The position numbers were made by a program, and so were the translations under genes. A model generated the notes under the pieces. It ran no database searches and was not told the origin of the DNA. It saw only the letters and a list, made by a program, of their open reading frames with translations. A DNA stretch of 7,071 nt from Chloroflexota bacterium (GTDB taxonomy: Bacteria > Chloroflexota > Anaerolineae > J102): positions 1-7,071 of the forward strand of contig PIVW01000308.1 of the NCBI GenBank assembly GCA_003353825.1, in the 5' to 3' direction. Positions 1 to 7,071 of the stretch are shown piece after piece. Positions within the stretch are counted from its first letter, which is position 1. Each line of letters opens with the position of its first letter.

Positions 1-392
1 AATCGCAGGACCGCGCCCACAGCCGCTAATGCCCCTAACACCGCCAATGGTTTCGATGTGATCTGGCCGCTTTGCAAATTGGCAATCACCGCACCTAAAC
101 CAAGAAGACTCAACAGCGTAAGCATGAGCAACGAATCTTCACCATGGGCGCCCATCATACCGCCTTGCTGTTGAGCAGACTGGCGGAAGAAGGGGGTCAG
201 GAATGCCACCACACCCAAGAGGCTGGCAAGCAAGAGGATGAAGGAAGGGAAAAGGGACGCGGGTAAACGAAGCCGCAAAGGGGCAGGGTGATGTGAGGGT
301 GATGCCTGTGCCCTCACACTGACCTCGTCCTCGTAATAATCGGGGTCACCTAATGCAAGTTCTCGTTTGAAGGGTCTTGAATCTGTCGTCAC
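1..392 (-). CDS. ECF transporter substrate-specific (S) component, N-terminal part, runs off left edge
   Basis: The first 130 codons of a membrane protein are present and the gene continues beyond base 1. I start it at GTG 392 because AAGGG (400-404) lies 7 nt upstream; a TTG at 440 in the same frame lacks a ribosome site. Residues 1-45 form a charged and Pro-rich cytoplasmic tail. Residues 49-69 are a membrane helix ending in FLTPFF. After a Gly/Gln/Met-rich loop (71-86, GGMMGAHGEDS) a second hydrophobic segment (87-105) leads to SKPLAVLGALAAVGAVLR, which resembles the conserved 'DAKxVAxLGVLAAxxAxLRP' segment I know from S components encoded beside CbiQ/EcfT and double ATPases in actinobacteria and Chloroflexota. 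The S component sets substrate choice; the riboswitch upstream makes cobalamin the likely ligand. It follows the ATPase gene by 66 nt, last in the visible operon. The family call is fairly firm; the ligand is inferred. Confidence 0.8.
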   Translation of the reverse strand, partial: MTTDSRPFKRELALGDPDYYEDEVSVRAQASPSHHPAPLRLRLPASLFPSFILLLASLLGVVAFLTPFFRQSAQQQGGMMGAHGEDSLLMLTLLSLLGLGAVIANLQSGQITSKPLAVLGALAAVGAVLR

Positions 393-399
393 TTTTTTG

Positions 400-404
400 C
401 CCTT
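400..404 (-). promoter_or_regulatory. Ribosome binding site of the S-component gene
   Basis: Minus-strand AAGGG sits 7 nt before GTG 392 and decides in favour of this GTG over the in-frame TTG at 440, which has no purine-rich site before it. Confidence 0.6.
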
Positions 405-458
405 GCCGAGGCGGTTAGGGTGATTTTCTGATAATGCCAATGACTCGAAGACAGGCTC

Positions 459-2159
459 TTAAATCGAGCCATTCGTATTTTTTGTGGCAGGGTATGCAGG
501 TTCTATCCGGGCCGGATTGACGTTCTGAATCGGTTGTTTCACAGTCGTCAAACTCTCCAACACATCCTCAGGCGTTAGCAAACGTGGGTCTCGAAAGAGT
601 TTGTTTACCTGGCTGGAGAAGACCAGCGATTCCGCCATCACACGGCGGGCCGGGCCATCCACCACGATCTGCCCTTGCGACATGAGGACGACACGATCGG
701 CGGTGGCGGCAACCAACTCGACATCATGCGTGGCCATGAGCACGGTCTTGCCCTGACTGCGCAACTCCTGCAGCAGACGAGCCAGATTGTGTTTCTGCAC
801 GTAATCAAGCCCGCGGGTGGGTTCGTCCAGCATTATGAGAGGGGGATCGGTGATCAGTACCGCTGCCAAGGCAACGCGCTGCCTCTGGCCGGTAGAGAGA
901 TCACGGGGATGTTTGTCCGCTAAATGATCGATGCCCAGACGTTCGAGCAGGACCTGATCGGCGGCAGGATCAGGGGTCAAATCATGGGCGCGCCGCGTGA
1001 AAGCCAGTTCATCGGCCACCGTTTCCGCGAAGAGCATGCGGTCCGGATTCTGCGGCACGTAGGCGATGTCCCTGGTCAGCACCTCGGTCGCGGTTTCAGC
1101 TGCATTTTGTCCCAGCACCCGCACGTTGCCAGCGGCCGGTTGCAAAAGCCCAACCAGATGTTTTAGCAAAGTGCTTTTGCCGCTGCCATTGCGGCCCATC
1201 AGAGCGACGAATTCGCCGGGCTGCACCTTTAACTCAACCCCCTGCAATGCCTCCACGCCATTGTCGTAGCGATGCCATAGGCGCTCGACCCGAACTGAGG
1301 GTTGCTTTCCATTGCGTTTACCAATCGTGGGCGCTTCGGGCGGAAGCTGCAACTGGTCCTTCATCTTTCTGGCAAAACGGCGGCCCTGTTTGATGGTCAG
1401 CGGCAGTGGCGTCCAGCCCAATGCCTTCCCCAATGTGATGAGCGGTGGCGTCAAGGGCACCTGTTCCAGGATCTCGTCAGGCTCGCCCAACAGGGGACTC
1501 TGTCCCTCACCAGGCCAATAGAGGATGCTATCCGCATACTGGATCACTCGCTCCAGGCGATGTTCGGAAAGCACGATCGTGATGCCCAGGTCTTCGTTGA
1601 GATGGCGCAGCGCCAGCAGTACCTCTTCGGCTGCCTGGGGGTCCAGTTGTGATGTGGGCTCGTCTAGCACCAGGATGTCCGGGTGCAGCGTCAGCACCGA
1701 GGCAATGGCAACACGCTGTTTCTCACCCCCCGAGAGCGTACTCACCGGTCGGGCGCGCAAGTGTGCGATCTGCAATTGATCCAGTGCCTCTTCCACACGT
1801 TTTCGCATGACATCTTGTGGCAACGCCCAATTTTCCAGGGCAAACGCCAACTCATCCTCGACCATATCGACCACAAAGCTCGATTCCGGATCCTGGAAGA
1901 CCATGCCTACTAAATCTGACATGCCCTTGGGTTCTAGCTGTACGGGATCTCGCCCATCCACACGCACCACGCCCGAAACCTCGCCACCATAAAAATGGGG
2001 CGCCAAACCGTTGAGGCTGCGCAAAAAGGTCGATTTCCCCGCGCCCGAGGGGCCCACCACCAGCACGAAATCCCCTTCCGGCAATTGCAGGCTGATATCC
2101 TGTAGCACGGGGCTATCCGCACCTGGATAGCGATAGTTGAAGTGCTCGAAGCGGATCAT
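459..2159 (-). CDS. ecfA: Fused double ATPase of an ECF transporter (EcfA-EcfA' in one chain)
   Basis: A 566-residue protein carrying two complete ABC nucleotide-binding domains, which powers the ECF importer by ATP hydrolysis on the cytoplasmic face. NBD1: Walker A GPSGAGKST (36-44), Q-loop Q89, signature LSGGEKQ (142-148), Walker B ILVLDEP (162-168), switch His H200. NBD2: Walker A GRNGSGKST (322-330), Q370, signature LSTGQRQ (421-427), Walker B LIMLDEP (441-447), H478. Both catalytic Glu (E167, E446) are present, so both sites could be active. The frame is open further upstream to 2429, but the extra 90 residues are a shadow of the permease gene. The ATG at 2159 starts directly at MIRFEHFNYRYPG, as ABC domains do, and overlaps the permease stop as ATGA, so translational coupling is likely; no clear ribosome site precedes it. 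Single ECF ATPases are about 280 residues, so this is a head-to-tail fusion. A roughly 45-residue tail after NBD2 has no recognised motif. Confidence 0.95.
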   Translation of the reverse strand: MIRFEHFNYRYPGADSPVLQDISLQLPEGDFVLVVGPSGAGKSTFLRSLNGLAPHFYGGEVSGVVRVDGRDPVQLEPKGMSDLVGMVFQDPESSFVVDMVEDELAFALENWALPQDVMRKRVEEALDQLQIAHLRARPVSTLSGGEKQRVAIASVLTLHPDILVLDEPTSQLDPQAAEEVLLALRHLNEDLGITIVLSEHRLERVIQYADSILYWPGEGQSPLLGEPDEILEQVPLTPPLITLGKALGWTPLPLTIKQGRRFARKMKDQLQLPPEAPTIGKRNGKQPSVRVERLWHRYDNGVEALQGVELKVQPGEFVALMGRNGSGKSTLLKHLVGLLQPAAGNVRVLGQNAAETATEVLTRDIAYVPQNPDRMLFAETVADELAFTRRAHDLTPDPAADQVLLERLGIDHLADKHPRDLSTGQRQRVALAAVLITDPPLIMLDEPTRGLDYVQKHNLARLLQELRSQGKTVLMATHDVELVAATADRVVLMSQGQIVVDGPARRVMAESLVFSSQVNKLFRDPRLLTPEDVLESLTTVKQPIQNVNPARIEPAYPATKNTNGSI

Positions 2160-3301
2160 GATCGCTGGGCGGGGGTGTTGGCCGTTGCCGGTAGAGAAGC
2201 AGTCAATGTTTGGGTCTCCACTGCTGGGCGGGCCGGTGTGGGCATGAATAAGACAGGAGTCAAGAGGAGTGCGGCCAGCAATCCATACAGGGGGTTGAAG
2301 TCTGGGAGCAGAGAATAGGGAGGGTAGGGATAATAGAACAGCTGCCTGGGAGCAAACATCGACAGCGCCACAAAAATGATAAATATCAACGCCATGATGC
2401 CGGCGACCCAGGTATCGCGGCGCCGCCACAGCCAGCGACGATAAGCGCTACGCTCATGGCGCCCTCCCTGGTGGCGGAAGGCCAAGACAAGCACCACCAT
2501 CCCCAAGGCCAGCACCGCAAAACCCAGCCAGCCGGGCCCCAGTCCAAAAGATCGCGAGATCAACCCGGCTAATAACAACAGGAGTCCAACCACGCTTCCG
2601 GCCCCGACCAGCCAGCGCTCTCGGCCCTCGGTGCGAACATCTTGCCCACCAAAGCCGCGGGTTTCCATCGATTCGGCAAGTTGGATCGCCCGATCGAGCC
2701 CGATGCCAAGCAATGCCACGAACAGGGGTTGTAAGTCACGCAGACCGCGTACTTTATAGCCTCGCAACCGCTGTGCCTCCTGGATATCCTGCCAGGCGAT
2801 CAGCGTTTGGGGAATAAACGATATGGCGATGGTAAGTGCCACACCCGCCTGATGGGCAAAACCGGGGACAAGTCGCAATAACGTATGAGGCCCCACTGCG
2901 CTGTTGAAGGCACTGAACACTACTATGAGGGTGACAAATCCCAGCCCTACCACAAATCCATAAGCCATCGCTTCCAAGGTGATGGGCCCGCCAATCATGG
3001 GCCAGGCTCGGGGCAATGTGAAGAGAACGTACTTGCCCAGATGCACGGTCAAGGCATTGTAAATAATAGTAAAAATCCAGAGCGCCAATGCCAGCTTGAT
3101 GACAGGGGCCCAAACACCTGTGCGGCTGCGTGTCACAGTGGCAATACCATGAGCAGGTTGGCGCCGCGCCAGGGTGGCGTACACAAACACCCCCGCAAGC
3201 AACAATATCAACAGATAAAAGGGATTGCGCGTAAGCAGGGCGATGCTGGCGCCACATGCCAGCCACAAAATCCAGGTGATGGGATGATAGCCCGCTGACA
3301 T
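2156..3301 (-). CDS. ecfT: ECF transporter transmembrane (T) component, CbiQ/EcfT family
   Basis: A 381-residue integral membrane protein that couples the ATPases to the S component. Numbering from ATG 3301 and taking helices by eye, hydrophobic segments lie near residues 10-44, 67-84, 111-135, 152-168, 190-203, 230-247 and 256-274. The two EcfT coupling-helix motifs are visible: EAQRLRGY (about 175-182) and AESMETRGFGG (about 209-219); their Arg-Gly residues dock into the ATPases. Beyond the usual core there is an Arg-rich patch (about 280-295), then two more helices (about 298-316 and 338-354) separated by an aromatic/Pro-rich loop (FYYPYPPYSLLPDF), making it longer than the roughly 260-residue typical EcfT. 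A GTG at 3304 is in frame and immediately precedes ATG 3301; I prefer the ATG because GGAGG (3309-3313) stands 7 nt before it but only 4 nt before the GTG. The upstream gene's TAA abuts the GTG and the ATPase overlaps the 3' end by 4 nt, so genes 3 to 5 of the operon are tightly coupled. Confidence 0.93.
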   Translation of the reverse strand: MSAGYHPITWILWLACGASIALLTRNPFYLLILLLAGVFVYATLARRQPAHGIATVTRSRTGVWAPVIKLALALWIFTIIYNALTVHLGKYVLFTLPRAWPMIGGPITLEAMAYGFVVGLGFVTLIVVFSAFNSAVGPHTLLRLVPGFAHQAGVALTIAISFIPQTLIAWQDIQEAQRLRGYKVRGLRDLQPLFVALLGIGLDRAIQLAESMETRGFGGQDVRTEGRERWLVGAGSVVGLLLLLAGLISRSFGLGPGWLGFAVLALGMVVLVLAFRHQGGRHERSAYRRWLWRRRDTWVAGIMALIFIIFVALSMFAPRQLFYYPYPPYSLLPDFNPLYGLLAALLLTPVLFMPTPARPAVETQTLTASLPATANTPAQRS

Positions 3302-3304
3302 CAC

Positions 3305-4624
3305 TTAGCCTCCACTTTGCCGGTAGAGGGCCCACAGGCCGATACCTGCCAAAGCAGCCAAAATCAGGGCGAATCCGCCGTATGTCAAGAAACGATTCGG
3401 ATCGGTGTTGCTGTTGCTGGGTGTCGGCGCCGGTGTTAGCACGCGCACCGGTTTCGCGACCTGACCGTCGCCTGCCTCCAATGGATCCGCGGCAACTTCG
3501 GCGACGACAACGGCGACGGGGGTCGGCGTCGCGGCGATGACGATGAGGGTGGGGCTAGGTGAAGTGGTAGGTGGAAGCTGCTGGATAGGTGTAGGTTGAA
3601 CGACGATCGCTGTAGGGGTTGGGGGCAGTGGTGTAAAAATAGGCGTGGGGGATACCACCGGAGTGGGGCTGGGTTGCGCCGGGATGGGTGTCTGTGTTGA
3701 GGCCGAAACCGTCAGCGTCTGCGTAAGGTTTTGCTCTTCTGTGCCACGCTGAATCCGCAGGCGGAAAAGGGTGGTTTGCGTCGGGCACACCCTCAAAGCC
3801 GAGTCCAAAGAGACCTTCTGCTCCGCCCTATCGCCATCTTTCAGAAAGACACTATCGGCTCCGATTACATTCCACTTCAGCGTTGAACAATCACCGCTGG
3901 CAATCTGGTCTGGATCCAAACCATAATCGATAGAAAGCGCCGGTTGGGCGGTCGGTGTGGGTGTCACCGATGCTGTCGTCGTTGCCGTGGGTGTGGGCGT
4001 GGTTGTAGCAGTCGGCGTCGCTGTGGGGGTGGGAGTGGCCGTGGACGTTTCGGTAGGGGTAGGCGTCAACGTGGGGGTTGCGACAAACGGTGCACAGATG
4101 TCGTTGAAGGTCATTAAAGGTGGTTCGACATCCGCTGAGCTATTATCCCCACCCGGATTCCAGACGCCTGTACTCCAGGCCCAGCCATCAACCAGGCCAT
4201 CACTTACCTGCCTGCCACCCGCACCCACTTGAGAATATTCCCAGGCATTTCCAGTCTGATGATAATATGCCCAAAATTCGCAGTCGATTCCTTGGCATTG
4301 GCAGAAACAGTCATCTAAGGGGAAATCACAGCCGTCACTATGAACACCCTCGCTTATCTTACAGACAGCTTCGCCGAATCCGCCCGACGGATTGATAACG
4401 GATTCCAGGCCGGTAATCAGTTCTGATTTTCGCAGAAGTTCAGAACCGCTAATGCTAGACTCTGTGAACTCGACACAGGCAGATGTGGTGCTACCATCAC
4501 TAAAGGTGACGACGATGCCGGCGCGGTTAGGATCGTCGGCTTGGCTGGTGCCGAAGCCTAGGATAAGGACGAGTGTTATGCCAAGAATTAGGAAGCGAAG
4601 GTGGCGAGTCATTGTTCGTAACAT
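3305..4624 (-). CDS. Secreted, membrane-anchored transcobalamin beta-domain-like (DUF4430-like) protein with Ig-like domain
   Basis: A 439-residue exported protein. Residues 1-29 are a signal peptide (basic start, LRFLILGITLVLILGFG, likely cut after TSQA). Residues about 34-178 form a domain matching the neighbour at 4731-5303: VVTFSDGSTT, a Cys-rich stretch with DDCFC (104-108) and further Cys at 88, 99, 110, 115, then FWAYY, W128, a Gly-rich VGAGG, VDGWAW (145-150) and a closing TFNDIC. This resembles the transcobalamin C-terminal beta domain. Residues 182-228 are a Thr/Pro spacer; 229-308 an Ig-like domain of the Chloroflexota type (GDCSTLKWNV ... RVCPTQTTLFRLRI); 311-405 a second Pro-rich spacer; 412-432 a membrane helix followed by a short YRQSGG tail, so the protein would be displayed outside the membrane. 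No good ribosome site precedes ATG 4624 or the in-frame ATG 4612; either gives a sound signal peptide. The frame is open to an ATG at 4702 but those residues are not signal-like. Its role is probably to bind a corrinoid or to dock the capture proteins near the ECF importer; this is inferred. Confidence 0.8.
   Translation of the reverse strand: MLRTMTRHLRFLILGITLVLILGFGTSQADDPNRAGIVVTFSDGSTTSACVEFTESSISGSELLRKSELITGLESVINPSGGFGEAVCKISEGVHSDGCDFPLDDCFCQCQGIDCEFWAYYHQTGNAWEYSQVGAGGRQVSDGLVDGWAWSTGVWNPGGDNSSADVEPPLMTFNDICAPFVATPTLTPTPTETSTATPTPTATPTATTTPTPTATTTASVTPTPTAQPALSIDYGLDPDQIASGDCSTLKWNVIGADSVFLKDGDRAEQKVSLDSALRVCPTQTTLFRLRIQRGTEEQNLTQTLTVSASTQTPIPAQPSPTPVVSPTPIFTPLPPTPTAIVVQPTPIQQLPPTTSPSPTLIVIAATPTPVAVVVAEVAADPLEAGDGQVAKPVRVLTPAPTPSNSNTDPNRFLTYGGFALILAALAGIGLWALYRQSGG
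3309..3313 (-). promoter_or_regulatory. Ribosome binding site of ecfT, inside the upstream gene's last codons
   Basis: Minus-strand GGAGG lies within the last two sense codons (GGA GGC) of the preceding secreted-protein gene, 7 nt before ATG 3301. The junction reads GGAGGCTAAGTGATG: Shine-Dalgarno, stop, alternative GTG and ATG in 15 nt, as expected for termination-reinitiation coupling. Confidence 0.75.
3941..4081 (-). repeat. Low-complexity Thr/Pro-coding tract (surface spacer)
   Basis: In-frame degenerate repeat coding for TPT/ATPT units (residues 182-228 of the 3305-4624 protein). The plus strand shows it as GT-rich 'gtgggtgtgggcg' runs. It is likely an extended, possibly glycosylated stalk between the beta-like and Ig-like domains, and is prone to length variation between strains. 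Confidence 0.85.
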
Positions 4625-4646
4625 GGTCTGCGAGTCACAGTAGGGG

Positions 4647-4725
4647 CTTAGGACAGAATAACTTGCCGATTTGCTTCCTGACATGAGGATAGAGTTCCGC
4701 AAGTTATTGAATTGTCAGTCCTAAG
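4647..4725 (-). repeat. Nested inverted repeat between the two beta-domain genes (mRNA structure)
   Basis: In the 106-nt gap between the two beta-like genes the plus strand carries two nested perfect inverted pairs: CTTAGGAC (4647-4654) with GTCCTAAG (4718-4725), and AATAACTTGC (4657-4666) with GCAAGTTATT (4699-4708). The 32-nt apical part contains a small TCCT/AGGA pair. The arms are separated by 2 nt on one side and 9 nt on the other, giving an asymmetric internal loop. There is no U-tract, so it does not look like a terminator. It may be an RNA-stability or processing element. Confidence 0.6.
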
Positions 4726-4730
4726 TGTTC

Positions 4731-5303
4731 TTAAGCAGTTCTGCGGCGGCGAGCGTAGGCAGCGAGTCCGGCCAAACCGCTGCCCAGGAGAATGAGAGTG
4801 GCGGGCTCAGGAATTTCGGCTGGAGGCGGGCTCAGTTCTGCTTCGATCTCATCGAAGGTCTTGACAGGAGGTTCGACAGTGGGATTGAAATCTTGATCGA
4901 ATCCCGACCAGGCAAATCCTTCTACGGCCCGATCTGCCGGGGTGTGATTGCTTACGCCGACCGCAGAACTCTCCCAGGTATCACCCTTAAGATTGAAATA
5001 GGCCCAGTACATCTCAAGATTGCAGAAACAGTCGTCACTGGGACAACCATCATTGTTGATATTACAGACAGCGGGACCCCAACCCGCATCGAACATGCCC
5101 ACGGGGACATCAGCACTTTCGAGCACGCCCGCTGTGCTAGCATCGCTGGGGAGGGTTACAATCTCGGTATAGGTTGTGCCATCAGAATAGCTGATGACTA
5201 ATGCAACCTGTTTGGCGCCACTGCCCTGGGCATAAGCTGTTGAGGCCAGCAGAATCGAAAACAACACAAGTAAAATGATAAAAACGTTACGACGGGATCG
5301 CAT
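4731..5303 (-). CDS. Secreted PEP-CTERM protein with transcobalamin beta-domain-like (DUF4430-like) domain
   Basis: A 190-residue exported protein. Residues 1-25 are a signal peptide (MRSRRN, then a Leu/Ile core, likely cut after TAYA). Residues about 31-155 form the beta-like domain: LVISYSDGTT, AVCNINNDGCPSDDCFC (Cys 80, 87, 92, 94), MYWAYFNLKGDTW, GVSNHTPADRAVEGFAW (129-132) and KTFDEI. The WAY(F/Y), a Trp a few residues later, and EGFAW/DGWAW are shared with the next gene, which supports homology between them. The C-terminus is a textbook PEP-CTERM signal: PEPATL (165-170), a 14-residue hydrophobic stretch and a terminal RRRR, recognised by exosortase-type enzymes. ATG 5303 is chosen for the signal peptide and for AGGAA (5311-5315) 7 nt upstream; the frame open to 5558 is a shadow of the upstream gene. 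It starts 35 nt after the alpha-domain gene ends. It is probably the beta half of a corrinoid-capture pair; no binding residues can be assigned from sequence alone. Confidence 0.82.
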   Translation of the reverse strand: MRSRRNVFIILLVLFSILLASTAYAQGSGAKQVALVISYSDGTTYTEIVTLPSDASTAGVLESADVPVGMFDAGWGPAVCNINNDGCPSDDCFCNLEMYWAYFNLKGDTWESSAVGVSNHTPADRAVEGFAWSGFDQDFNPTVEPPVKTFDEIEAELSPPPAEIPEPATLILLGSGLAGLAAYARRRRTA

Positions 5304-5310
5304 AAGTAAG

Positions 5311-5315
5311 TTCCT
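5311..5315 (-). promoter_or_regulatory. Ribosome binding site of the PEP-CTERM protein gene
   Basis: Minus-strand AGGAA lies 7 nt before ATG 5303. It selects this start among the several in-frame upstream codons and places it exactly at the signal peptide. Confidence 0.65.
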
Positions 5316-5338
5316 GTGCGAAGAAAAATAATGAGCTA

Positions 5339-6352
5339 TCAAGGAGAGAGGATCGCCGGCAAATAGAATCGTAGAGGTGTCGCCATGTCGGCGGGGTAAG
5401 GATGTGAAAGGGCGGGGATAGAATCGGTGGTCGCCAACATGCGGCTTTCTGGCAGTTCGTGCTGGAAGACAAAGGCGCCACTCGCCTCCTGAAAACTCAG
5501 CAGCGTGGTCACGGGATTCGTACCATTCTTCTCGAATTTGGCAGACTCCGGATCCCAACCGGCAGCGAGCAGCCCTTCGATAGCCAGGGCCGTGGAGTCA
5601 CTATTGCTGATGTCATCATAGCCCCAACCGGCGTCGCTGTTTTGGTTTTCGATGAGATAAGCGACTGCCGACACAAAAGCAGGATGGTTCGGCGATAACC
5701 CCAAGGTATGCAGAGCCTGAAGCACGCGCCCGCTGGTATCGACATCGGCGATCGAGGCGAAGCCATCACTAAGATCTGGATCGATCACCCAGCTCCAGCC
5801 CCCATCTGGTCGCTGCTGTCGCAGCATAGCATCTGTCGCTGCCTGGGGAATATTACGCCCCGCTTCATGAAGAGCCATCATGGCCAGAACATGCCGAAAC
5901 AGACTACCCGAATGATAGAATCCAGTCTCAGCATCGTATTTGTTCTCTAGTTCGCTAATGAGGTCGAGCCCACCGAACGCCCTGGGATCAGCCTCTGTCG
6001 CGGCAACCGCTCGCAGAACCTTGCCCATGCGTCCGGCATCACGCCTGGCCAAATAGGTGGGCACATCTGCTTCACAGGCAGCGAGCAAGCTGGTACCACC
6101 AGATGTCCAGACAGGCCCTGCCGGATTTTCACCTGCCACCACCCAGGCTGCTTCACAGGATGTCCCTAACCCGCCAATATGGCCATCCGGTTTCTGTTGT
6201 GCTTTGAGCCAAATGAGAGCGTCGGCAACAGCTTGTTGGCGTTCCAGGAGACTACCCCGCGCGCTGATAGCCAGTACACTGCCAGCAGCAGTGGTCAGGA
6301 ATAGTACTAAGAGTATGTAAACTGTCAGTTGAAATCTGTGTTGTTTAACCAT
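5339..6352 (-). CDS. Secreted prenyltransferase/squalene-oxidase-repeat protein, transcobalamin alpha-domain-like
   Basis: First gene after the riboswitch: a 337-residue exported protein. Residues 1-28 are a signal peptide (VKQHR, hydrophobic core, AAGSVLA). The mature part is helical with internal repeats of the alpha/alpha-toroid type: ALIWLKAQQKPDGHIG (45-60), YDAETGFYHSG (139-149), AMLRQQRPDGGWSW (175-188), AVAYLIENQNSDAGWGY (229-245) and LLSFQEASGAFVF (284-296), alternating with D-T/S-x-x-A/V-L segments (DTSGRVLQAL, DSTALAIEGL, TTDSIPALSHPYP). No terpene-cyclase DxDD acid motif is seen, so catalysis is unlikely. The same fold forms the N-terminal corrinoid-binding domain of intrinsic factor and transcobalamin; the TTDSIPALSHPYP ending is like theirs. 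Cys 66 and 93 could form a disulfide. There is no anchor or LPxTG, so it may be held at the surface by the beta-domain partners. ATG 6352 is preceded by AAGG at 7 nt. The role as the alpha half of a split cobalamin binder is inferred from fold and riboswitch. Confidence 0.85.
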   Translation of the reverse strand: MVKQHRFQLTVYILLVLFLTTAAGSVLAISARGSLLERQQAVADALIWLKAQQKPDGHIGGLGTSCEAAWVVAGENPAGPVWTSGGTSLLAACEADVPTYLARRDAGRMGKVLRAVAATEADPRAFGGLDLISELENKYDAETGFYHSGSLFRHVLAMMALHEAGRNIPQAATDAMLRQQRPDGGWSWVIDPDLSDGFASIADVDTSGRVLQALHTLGLSPNHPAFVSAVAYLIENQNSDAGWGYDDISNSDSTALAIEGLLAAGWDPESAKFEKNGTNPVTTLLSFQEASGAFVFQHELPESRMLATTDSIPALSHPYPADMATPLRFYLPAILSP

Positions 6353-6379
6353 AAAAAAACCTTGTCGCTATGGACAAGG
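6353..6379 (-). terminator. Intrinsic terminator of the cobalamin riboswitch, also covering the first Shine-Dalgarno
   Basis: In minus-strand sense, CCTTGTC (6379-6373), loop CATAGC, GACAAGG (6366-6360), then seven U (6359-6353) and at once ATG 6352. Two G-U and one A-U pair can extend the 7-bp stem into the U-tract. The 3' arm holds AAGG (6363-6360), the only ribosome site for the alpha-domain gene, and the U-tract is its 7-nt spacer. The same hairpin could therefore stop transcription and hide the start site. Confidence 0.82.
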
Positions 6380-6403
6380 CCTAGTGCTTTTCACAAGACC
6401 GGC

Positions 6404-6418
6404 CCCTGTCCACGCAGG
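6404..6418 (-). promoter_or_regulatory. Riboswitch switching hairpin (P13-like) and candidate antiterminator strand
   Basis: Minus strand CCTG (6418-6415), loop CGTGGA, CAGG (6408-6405) forms a short hairpin just after the aptamer. Its loop CGTG (6414-6411) is complementary to CACG (6470-6467) in the aptamer's P5 loop, matching the L5-L13 kissing interaction known for cobalamin riboswitches. GGACAGGG (6411-6404) can instead pair with CCTTGTCC (6379-6372), with seven Watson-Crick pairs and one G-U, which would break up the terminator. The two pairings share bases and exclude each other. Confidence 0.65.
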
Positions 6419-6430
6419 CTTCCGATGTTG

Positions 6431-6570
6431 TTACAGCTCCAGGTTTTCTGGCTTAGGCTACGGGTACGTGCCCCATGAGCCGTCACAGTTGCGGGACAGC
6501 GCCGGAATCTCGATCAATCGACCACCGGACTTCCCCCGATCATCGCAATCAGCGATGAAAAAAGCTGTAA
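6431..6570 (-). promoter_or_regulatory. Cobalamin riboswitch aptamer
   Basis: A class RF00174-like aptamer, read on the minus strand. P1 is closed by a perfect 8-bp pair TTACAGCT (6570-6563) with AGCTGTAA (6438-6431). Next comes a perfect hairpin CATCGC/GCGATG (6557-6541), then the conserved core GGGGAAGTCCGGTG, TTCCGGCGCTGTCCCGCAA, CTGTGACGG, and a P5 arm GGG-GCACGTA-CCC. The B12-box-like AGCCAGAAAACCTG (about 6453-6440) precedes the P1 3' strand. Cobalamin aptamers normally lower expression when they bind the vitamin, here of the import operon that follows. At 140 nt it lacks some peripheral arms of long adenosylcobalamin types, so I cannot tell which cobalamin form it prefers. Confidence 0.93.
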
Positions 6571-6596
6571 ATTTACGGTATCTAGTTTATGTTTAC

Positions 6597-6626
6597 AGTA
6601 TAGGTTGTCGTCGAAAACGATGTCAA
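6597..6626 (-). promoter_or_regulatory. Sigma70-type promoter of the cobalamin operon
   Basis: Minus-strand TTGACA (6626-6621), an 18-bp spacer and TATACT (6602-6597). The -35 box is a consensus match and the -10 box differs from TATAAT by one base. Transcription would start near 6590, about 20 nt before the aptamer's P1 strand, so the whole riboswitch lies in the leader. No other good promoter was seen in the operon. Confidence 0.75.
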
Positions 6627-6784: not shown

Positions 6785-7071
6785 TTAGGCCGGAGCTGGA
6801 GCGGGCGGTGTTGCCGAACCCTTTTTTGTGGAAGAGCGAAAGTCTGGATCACTATCACGTGAGGGCGTTGTCGGTGGCGGGGCAGCAGGTGGTATATCGA
6901 GCGGTGGTAGTTCGCCATCCTCGGACAACGCTCTGAACTCCGCAGCCGTCAGTGATTCTCGATCCAGTAATGTTTGTGCGACCAATTCCAACATCTCACC
7001 ATGGGTTTGCAAAACCTGACGAGATTGTCGATAGCCTTCATCGACAATACGCCTCACTTCCCTGTCGTTCT
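6785..7071 (-). CDS. ftsH: ATP-dependent zinc metalloprotease FtsH, C-terminal end, runs off right edge
   Basis: Only the last 94 complete codons are in the window; the frame is open to base 7071. The segment NDREVRRIVDEGYRQSRQ, followed by VLQTHGEMLELVAQTLLDRESLTAAEFRAL, matches the helical end of the FtsH protease domain, where 'D-EV-R-I---Y--A--IL----L--LA--LLE-ETL---E' is conserved. After LSEDGELPPLD there is a 37-residue Pro/Ala/Ser-rich tail ending in PAPAPA; FtsH tails vary in length and are usually disordered. The AAA+ motifs and the HExxH zinc site lie outside the window. FtsH degrades membrane and regulatory proteins at the cytoplasmic membrane. It is separated from the cobalamin operon by a hairpin and a promoter, so it is a neighbour and not part of that system. 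Confidence 0.88.
   Translation of the reverse strand, partial: NDREVRRIVDEGYRQSRQVLQTHGEMLELVAQTLLDRESLTAAEFRALSEDGELPPLDIPPAAPPPTTPSRDSDPDFRSSTKKGSATPPAPAPA

Follow-up and report, generated by a model that had tools for sequence, protein, structure and literature searches.

An ECF importer operon of Chloroflexota with a cobalamin riboswitch and split, exported transcobalamin-like proteins: a probable system for corrinoid capture and import

The 7,071-nucleotide stretch at positions 1 to 7,071 of contig PIVW01000308.1 of a Chloroflexota bacterium (assembly GCA_003353825.1), here called the window, carries in order along its minus strand a cobalamin riboswitch, a gene for an exported (alpha/alpha)-toroid protein (alpha), two genes for exported proteins with a beta-like domain (beta2, then beta1), and genes for EcfT, a fused EcfA-A' and EcfS of an energy-coupling factor (ECF) importer. 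This one-strand arrangement, first proposed in a preliminary description made from the DNA alone, is real, being confirmed by a match to the Rfam family RF00174 and by gene models; the interpretation that accompanied it, in which a transcobalamin-like receptor in two halves would assemble on the surface and hand a corrinoid to the importer, is supported and largely holds. Corrinoid import with exported transcobalamin-like capture proteins is very likely, and we hold with good confidence that the operon as a whole is an ECF corrinoid importer whose capture protein is split in this genome. The computed evidence comprises the riboswitch, the beta2 fold, the alpha toroid, the identity of the ECF genes, a relation between EcfS and the S-component CbrT, and a conserved linkage among these elements.

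The identity of the beta domain is settled by fold comparison; sequence profiles found no carrier. The predicted fold of beta2 is that of the transcobalamin beta domain, clear of the remaining matches, and in the model the helix of the five-stranded beta-grasp is followed by the hairpin insert that characterizes transcobalamin-type SLBB proteins; the earlier expectation of this fold, as opposed to an unrelated one, is thus borne out. Among the fold matches is 5np4, an isolated human beta domain solved with cyanocobalamin. DUF4430 (PF14478), the family named at the outset for the animal beta domain, is not reached at the level of sequence by either window beta protein, and the accession shown on many of the beta matches is Pfam PF28005. 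Against solved structures, beta profile A3 returned ribosomal proteins only (E 0.32 or worse), and the wide beta profile A4 an antigen receptor (E 0.0026), antibody chains and two unrelated chains, all of which were taken as chance. The alignments in use were selected by the authors: A2 holds 26 rows (the window and 25 of 50 matches), A3 holds 35 (the window and 34 of 120 listed matches), and A4, A5 and A6 hold 45, 44 and 25 rows from fetched loci. In a separate observation on beta2, Cys80 and Cys92 are invariant while Cys87 and Cys94 are kept or lost jointly in 120 of the 120 sequences counted, which are the matches listed, leaving aside the longer protein P0051 and 41 further matches.

Export and anchoring of these proteins are predicted from their termini. 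The closest comparison is L001, a Chloroflexi metagenome-assembled genome contig that bears the same operon with an alpha protein 93% identical, and the sole locus to come from a scan of close-relative genomes; its orthologues of alpha, beta2 and beta1 all have hydrophobic N-termini. A hydropathy scan of 67 relative loci, which is crude, uses cut-offs of our choosing and counts two-domain frames once under their first domain, found a hydrophobic N-terminus in 62 of the 65 frames for alpha and 55 of the 60 for beta; the C-terminus looks membrane-like in 46 and 51 of them, respectively. In the window, beta1 has a long Pro/Thr/Ser-rich linker and then a membrane-like segment at its C-terminus, and the PEP-CTERM motif of beta2 scores above the PF07589 cut-off; the exosortase family PF09721, the expected companion of such a motif, is found in the relatives G001 and G185.

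An EcfA pair, EcfT and EcfS stand together in the window, as in an ECF importer, with the EcfT itself below the cut-off of CbiQ. Scores against CbiQ are weak for the L001 protein as well (20.9 bits; cut-off 25), and two further relatives reach 43.9 bits, above the cut-off, and 24.2 bits, just under it. Because the window EcfS gene runs off the end, the S-component was assessed on L001, whose full-length EcfS scores 52.8 bits against PF12822, above cut-off. A phmmer search with a single EcfS sequence gave no match; an EcfS profile of 25 rows, L001 first, placed chain A of 6FNP (182 aa) at the top with E 6.5e-15, followed by folate S-components at 5.6e-05. From its length and from this match we infer that the chain is CbrT itself, and the profile comparison accordingly points to an EcfS family related to CbrT. 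The ECF-CbrT complex, for which 6FNP is the entry, takes up both cobalamin and cobinamide when placed in proteoliposomes, in an ATP-dependent manner, as described in the passages cited here from PMC5997447.

The linkage to cobalamin riboswitches was surveyed in 301 Chloroflexota genomes with an alpha profile at E 1e-10. Of the 62 genomes that matched, four with short partial matches (G003, G012, G173 and G267) were set aside, and the other 58 were searched with RF00174, which matched in 54. The 82 alpha matches merged into 67 genes, and all 67 loci were read. A cobalamin riboswitch lies 79-307 nt upstream, on the same strand, of 51 of the 67 genes (50 genomes), as against a chance expectation of about 0.01 such links in the surveyed genomes; five of these 51 riboswitches score below the Rfam gathering score. 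Of the alpha genes, 48 of the 51 linked and 5 of the 16 unlinked are followed by a beta domain, which is either no more than 5 kb downstream or fused behind alpha, and EcfT is found within 9 kb in 43 and 4 of them, respectively. Over the same span EcfA is near 31 linked and 7 unlinked genes, EcfS near 24 and 3, and contig ends conceal some neighbours, for example at L077 and L049. At L054 and L062, the beta profile missed the gene between alpha and EcfT, whose product scores 44.7 and 43.8 bits, respectively, against PF14478 (cut-off 23.8). The alpha protein of L054 is itself unusual (889 aa, positions 5318-7987), with an MgtE_N match above cut-off and weak CARDB and dockerin-like matches; it adjoins the DUF4430 protein and ECF genes, and a riboswitch was not detected there.

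A second survey, with the beta2 profile at E 1e-5, also matched 62 of the 301 genomes, 13 of them without an alpha match. This beta-only set was found through beta alone and so provides an independent test of the cobalamin link: at 13 of 13 loci beta is closely preceded, on its own strand, by a cobalamin riboswitch, and at ten EcfT, EcfA and EcfS follow downstream. At L105, EcfT and EcfA extend up to the contig end; L100 has EcfS with cobT, cobS and cobU matches (CobS at 108 of the 110 bits needed for TIGR00317, just under cut-off); and at L099 nothing was recognised in the 10 kb read. The proposal that homologues are linked to cobalamin riboswitches therefore stands, and the ten unlinked alpha loci that were scanned with the whole of Rfam (that is, those other than L038, L045, L063, L064, L065 and L079) showed no other riboswitch family. 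At L058 and L060, two of the unlinked loci, a cobalamin riboswitch is present farther off, about 2.2-2.4 kb upstream.

The two halves were originally described as separate exported proteins, and they are separate in the window, but four other Chloroflexota loci carry them fused. Single alpha-alpha-beta frames occur in L087 and L091, with a riboswitch before and EcfS, EcfT and EcfA after, and single beta-alpha-alpha frames in L056 and L059, both riboswitch-unlinked. Fusions of this kind speak for alpha and beta acting together. They also bear on an alternative in which beta alone is the corrinoid receptor and alpha serves in spacing, cell-wall docking or carrier binding, with no clamp between the two. 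Beta-only loci that keep the riboswitch, and in most cases the ECF genes, would fit this arrangement, as would the human beta domain of 5np4, solved with its ligand in isolation; we nonetheless consider it unlikely, given how regularly beta lies downstream of riboswitch-linked alpha genes and given that the four Chloroflexota fusions, and those of Streptomyces described below, join the same pair that animals use.

Several results weigh against an exported receptor of the transcobalamin type. Transcobalamin is absent from the best 50 rows of the alpha fold comparison, and PF01122, the alpha family of the animal carriers, has no match to the window alpha at E 0.1 or better and matches just 5 of 44 alpha domains of relatives, with a best E of 2e-05. 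On the beta side, PF14478 is reached by 1 of 45 wide-profile beta domains, at E 0.096, and the beta sequence profiles find no B12 carrier among solved structures. Sixteen of the 67 alpha genes are without a riboswitch within 700 nt, some of them near contig ends, and L113, one of three actinomycete operons considered below, has no riboswitch above threshold directly before the operon. The genomes of L053, L055, L061, L064 and L065 carry a second alpha copy without a riboswitch within 700 nt, a beta domain or an adjacent ECF operon; an EcfA-like frame lies 8 kb from the second alpha of L053, at the edge of the stretch read. Finally, beta occurs without alpha in the 13 beta-only operons, so alpha is optional, which corrects the initial picture.

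The alpha protein is, in its computed model, an (alpha/alpha) toroid. Terpene cyclases, sugar epimerases and other toroids fill the best 50 rows of its fold comparison, squalene-hopene cyclases being the best of all, and its Pfam match, PF13243, also points to squalene-hopene cyclases. Taken at face value, these matches would put alpha among the terpene cyclases, in keeping with the database name of P0001 (terpene cyclase/mutase), and would connect the operon with lipids. This candidate was rejected, as alpha scores 36 bits against a hopene cyclase equivalog model with a cut-off of 431; moreover, alpha relatives are exported, some are fused to beta domains, and they are tied to cobalamin riboswitches, all of which leaves a role in lipids highly improbable. 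The NCBIfam SCO2321 and SCO2322 families are not reached either, with alpha at 84.9 of the 300 bits needed and beta1 and beta2 at 29.1 and 25.7 of 85. At its C-terminus (window 5339-5365), alpha bears a short YLP-like motif, shared with many alpha relatives that have no membrane-like tail, which is possibly a sorting signal of Chloroflexota.

Which compound is carried is a question on which the neighbouring genes have some bearing. The substrate could be cobinamide, another incomplete corrinoid or a range of cobamides, and not cobalamin itself. Consistent with this, the L001 operon is joined to cobO, cobT, cobS and cobU; CobS lies downstream in 7 of the 67 alpha loci, NCBIfam confirming it in both of those tested, L042 and L075; and ECF-CbrT also moves cobinamide (PMC5997447, in the passages cited). 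The corrin-ring enzyme CbiC was not found in 46 of the 58 alpha-bearing genomes, G001 included. The window, however, has no cob genes, and those beta relatives that are animal carriers carry cobalamin; a substrate of this kind is less likely than not. Scavenging of corrinoids by alpha-bearing genomes is suggested only, because CbiC is rare in the rest of the sample and genome completeness is not given; the notion that corrin synthesis is lacking more often in alpha-bearing genomes than in others was not borne out, CbiC being present in 12 of 58 against 38 of 301 overall. Cobalt itself is a very improbable substrate. Cobalt transporters do occur within cobalamin riboswitch regulons, according to the passages cited from PMC3766115, and EcfT is CbiQ-like, but the EcfS family matches PF12822 and CbrT, and the exported domains match corrinoid carriers.

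The related neighbourhood suggested for actinomycetes at the outset proved to be real, being present on two Streptomyces plasmids and one Embleya plasmid, two of which have a cobalamin riboswitch immediately ahead of the operon. A tblastn search of plasmids gave five EcfS records and nine alpha records, of which three EcfS records and one other alpha record were read. The plasmid of Streptomyces sp. SAT1 (L112) carries a cobalamin riboswitch, a beta-alpha-alpha fusion, beta, EcfT, EcfA and EcfS, followed on the opposite strand by metE with its own cobalamin riboswitch, and the Embleya plasmid (L114) has a riboswitch at 32.2 bits, just above threshold, and then alpha, beta, EcfT, EcfA and EcfS. 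In Streptomyces sp. NBC_01237 (L113), the operon includes a beta-alpha-alpha fusion, and the riboswitch match precedes a divergent alpha gene instead. This further alpha-like gene, divergent from the operon, is found at 796-2208 of L112 and 1099-2511 of L113, the latter copy with its own cobalamin riboswitch. In the remaining alpha record, from Vescimonas (L115), a toroid protein is encoded close to a gene with a DUF4430 annotation, and the stretch read there gave no ECF profile match and no riboswitch above threshold.

Taken together, these features suggest how the system might work. A shortage of cobalamin would cause the riboswitch to let transcription through, and alpha and beta would be exported, with the membrane anchor of beta1 and the PEP-CTERM tail of beta2 keeping the receptor on the cell surface. 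If they act as transcobalamin does, alpha and beta would bind the corrinoid, and it is likely that they form a clamp, beta domain and toroid closing around it. Direct hand-over to the CbrT-like EcfS is plausible, after which EcfT and the fused EcfA-A' would energise entry. The sense in which the switch acts is likewise presumed, and the compound carried may be cobalamin, other cobamides or cobinamide. A fuller scenario, offered tentatively, gives the ECF importer a dedicated exported receptor: alpha and beta would clamp the corrinoid outside the membrane, in the manner of intrinsic factor in animals, and pass it straight to the CbrT-like S-component. In this scenario beta would be the ancient core, to which alpha was added later, split or fused according to lineage, and the two-part device of animals would be inherited from bacteria.

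The coordinates of the window features are collected in the table. Starts of beta2, beta1, EcfA and EcfS were chosen by inspection of the N-terminus or by comparison with L001, and not as the longest frame, such that beta2 likely begins at 5303 (its longest frame would begin at 5558), beta1 at 4624 and EcfS, by comparison with L001, at 392. The end of an ftsH-like gene comes first, and is followed by the promoter-like site, the riboswitch and the operon. The terminator-like hairpin directly before the alpha start codon is likely the expression platform of the riboswitch.

Features of the 7,071-nucleotide window, with the scores on which their assignment is based
Feature	Position	Strand	Evidence
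ftsH-like gene, end	6785..7069		Peptidase_M41 match
Promoter-like site, TTGACA-18-TATACT	6597..6626	-	11/12 consensus bases; shuffles: mean 0.5 promoter-like sites
Cobalamin riboswitch aptamer	6424..6578	-	RF00174 42.1 bits (gathering 31.5), E 3.3e-08, full model length
Terminator-like hairpin and T run, directly before alpha ATG at 6352	6357..6382	-	Shuffles: mean 0.5 terminator-like sites
alpha, exported (alpha/alpha) toroid, 337 aa	5339..6352	-	PF13243 37.5 bits (cut-off 26.1); AlphaFold2 pLDDT (predicted local distance difference test) 91.3
beta2, exported, predicted transcobalamin-type beta-grasp domain and PEP-CTERM tail, 190 aa	4731..5303	-	
beta1, exported, beta domain of the beta2 family, 439 aa	3305..4624	-	L001 orthologue matched by beta profiles
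EcfT-like transmembrane coupling protein	2156..3304	-	CbiQ 21.8 bits (cut-off 25)
Fused EcfA-EcfA' ATPase, 566 aa, two ABC domains	459..2159	-	TIGR04520 385 bits, TIGR04521 350 bits, both above cut-off
EcfS S-component, N-terminal part; gene leaves window	1..392	-	Judged on L001

The leader of the window operon differs from that of L001, in which cobO, cobT, cobS and cobU lie between ftsH and alpha and two cobalamin riboswitches are present, of which the copy ahead of cobO scores 38.2 bits and the copy ahead of alpha 27.7 bits, short of the gathering score. Three of these genes exceed their NCBIfam cut-offs (cobO 205 bits against 168, cobS 122 against 110, cobU 207 against 161), and cobT, at 4615-5671 of L001, is in two overlapping frames, each below the whole-length cut-off, as if the frame had been broken or the sequence contained an error. 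In its 5' part the window leader is like the L001 cobO leader, and in its 3' part like the L001 alpha leader, the switch falling inside a shared stretch; window positions 6478-6546 thus appear to join two riboswitch copies that are separate in L001, with the intervening cobO-cobT-cobS-cobU missing. Because the two halves track different L001 leaders and meet where these are alike, it is quite possible, if a little less likely than not, that the short leader is an assembly artefact in which two similar riboswitches were collapsed and the genes between them lost. Recombination between the repeats would produce an identical join. Deletion by recombination and collapse in assembly both fit the window leader, and the identity of the operon is the same either way.

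The core of this idea is not new. In the passages cited here, Burroughs et al. (2007, PMC1796856) described most transcobalamin-type SLBB proteins as secreted; a toroid is often fused on one side or the other, a second SLBB protein often accompanies them, and their genes are generally in predicted operons with a CbiO-like ATPase and a CbiQ-like membrane protein. Their owners, placed among low-GC Gram-positives, planctomycetes and some euryarchaea, usually lack key enzymes of B12 biosynthesis, and scavenging of B12 or of its precursors was proposed as a possible role; the earlier statement that no function was established for the secreted parts is corrected to the extent that one had been proposed. 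The window operon shares with those of 2007 the beta-grasp with a hairpin insert after the helix, secretion, the second SLBB protein and the CbiO/CbiQ-like partners, its EcfA-A' scoring above and its CbiQ-like protein below cut-off, with further support supplied by relatives. It differs in its separate alpha and beta chains, its cobalamin riboswitch, its CbrT-related EcfS, the existence of beta-only operons, the occurrence in actinomycetes as well as Chloroflexota, and beta sequences not caught by Pfam's DUF4430; the words riboswitch, Chloroflex- and Streptomyces do not occur in the main text of PMC1796856.

Other known systems resemble parts of this one. Compared with animal transcobalamin, haptocorrin and intrinsic factor, the window chains are separate and surface-anchored, with two betas per alpha; alpha is nearer to squalene cyclases in sequence and fold; and delivery would be to an ECF importer and not to an endocytic receptor. 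ECF-CbrT of Lactobacillus delbrueckii has a related EcfS, the ECF mechanism and the kind of substrate proposed here, but in the operons described above the ECF genes come with genes for alpha and beta, whereas purified ECF-CbrT transports in liposomes and so needs no exported capture protein (PMC5997447, passages cited). A module of acI actinobacteria has ECF genes behind cobalamin riboswitches and was proposed as a cobalamin transporter (PMC5301498, passages cited); to judge from the absence of transcobalamin, squalene and prenyltransferase from its main text, that paper names no exported transcobalamin-like protein. BtuG of Bacteroides likewise captures B12 at the surface for an importer, a likeness by description, but is a lipoprotein, found there only among Bacteroidetes, with BtuB as its partner (PMC6143338, passages cited). 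Riboswitch-regulated B12 genes in Chloroflexi were noted in a regulon survey (PMC3766115, passages cited). Among the matches listed in a search of open-licence PubMed Central, no link between a cobalamin riboswitch and a transcobalamin-like protein was noticed, which is no proof of absence. What is added here is the riboswitch linkage in numbers, the alpha/beta split, the fold evidence for beta, the beta-only operons, the relation of EcfS to CbrT, and the spread to Chloroflexota, Streptomyces and Embleya. With the riboswitch linkage and the CbrT relation, corrinoids are indicated much more firmly than by the gene neighbourhoods of 2007 with their cobalt-type partners.

In the usual description of ECF importers, the membrane S-component alone catches the vitamin. 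If the interpretation given here is true, a capture protein encoded beside the importer in Chloroflexota, Streptomyces and Embleya adds a receptor step to that scheme. It also provides candidate functions for proteins now named hypothetical, terpene cyclase, or SCO2321 or SCO2322 family. The idea of corrinoid capture is now directly testable, and these small bacterial proteins, occurring as beta alone, as split alpha and beta, and as fused chains, offer a means to probe the origin of intrinsic factor and transcobalamin.

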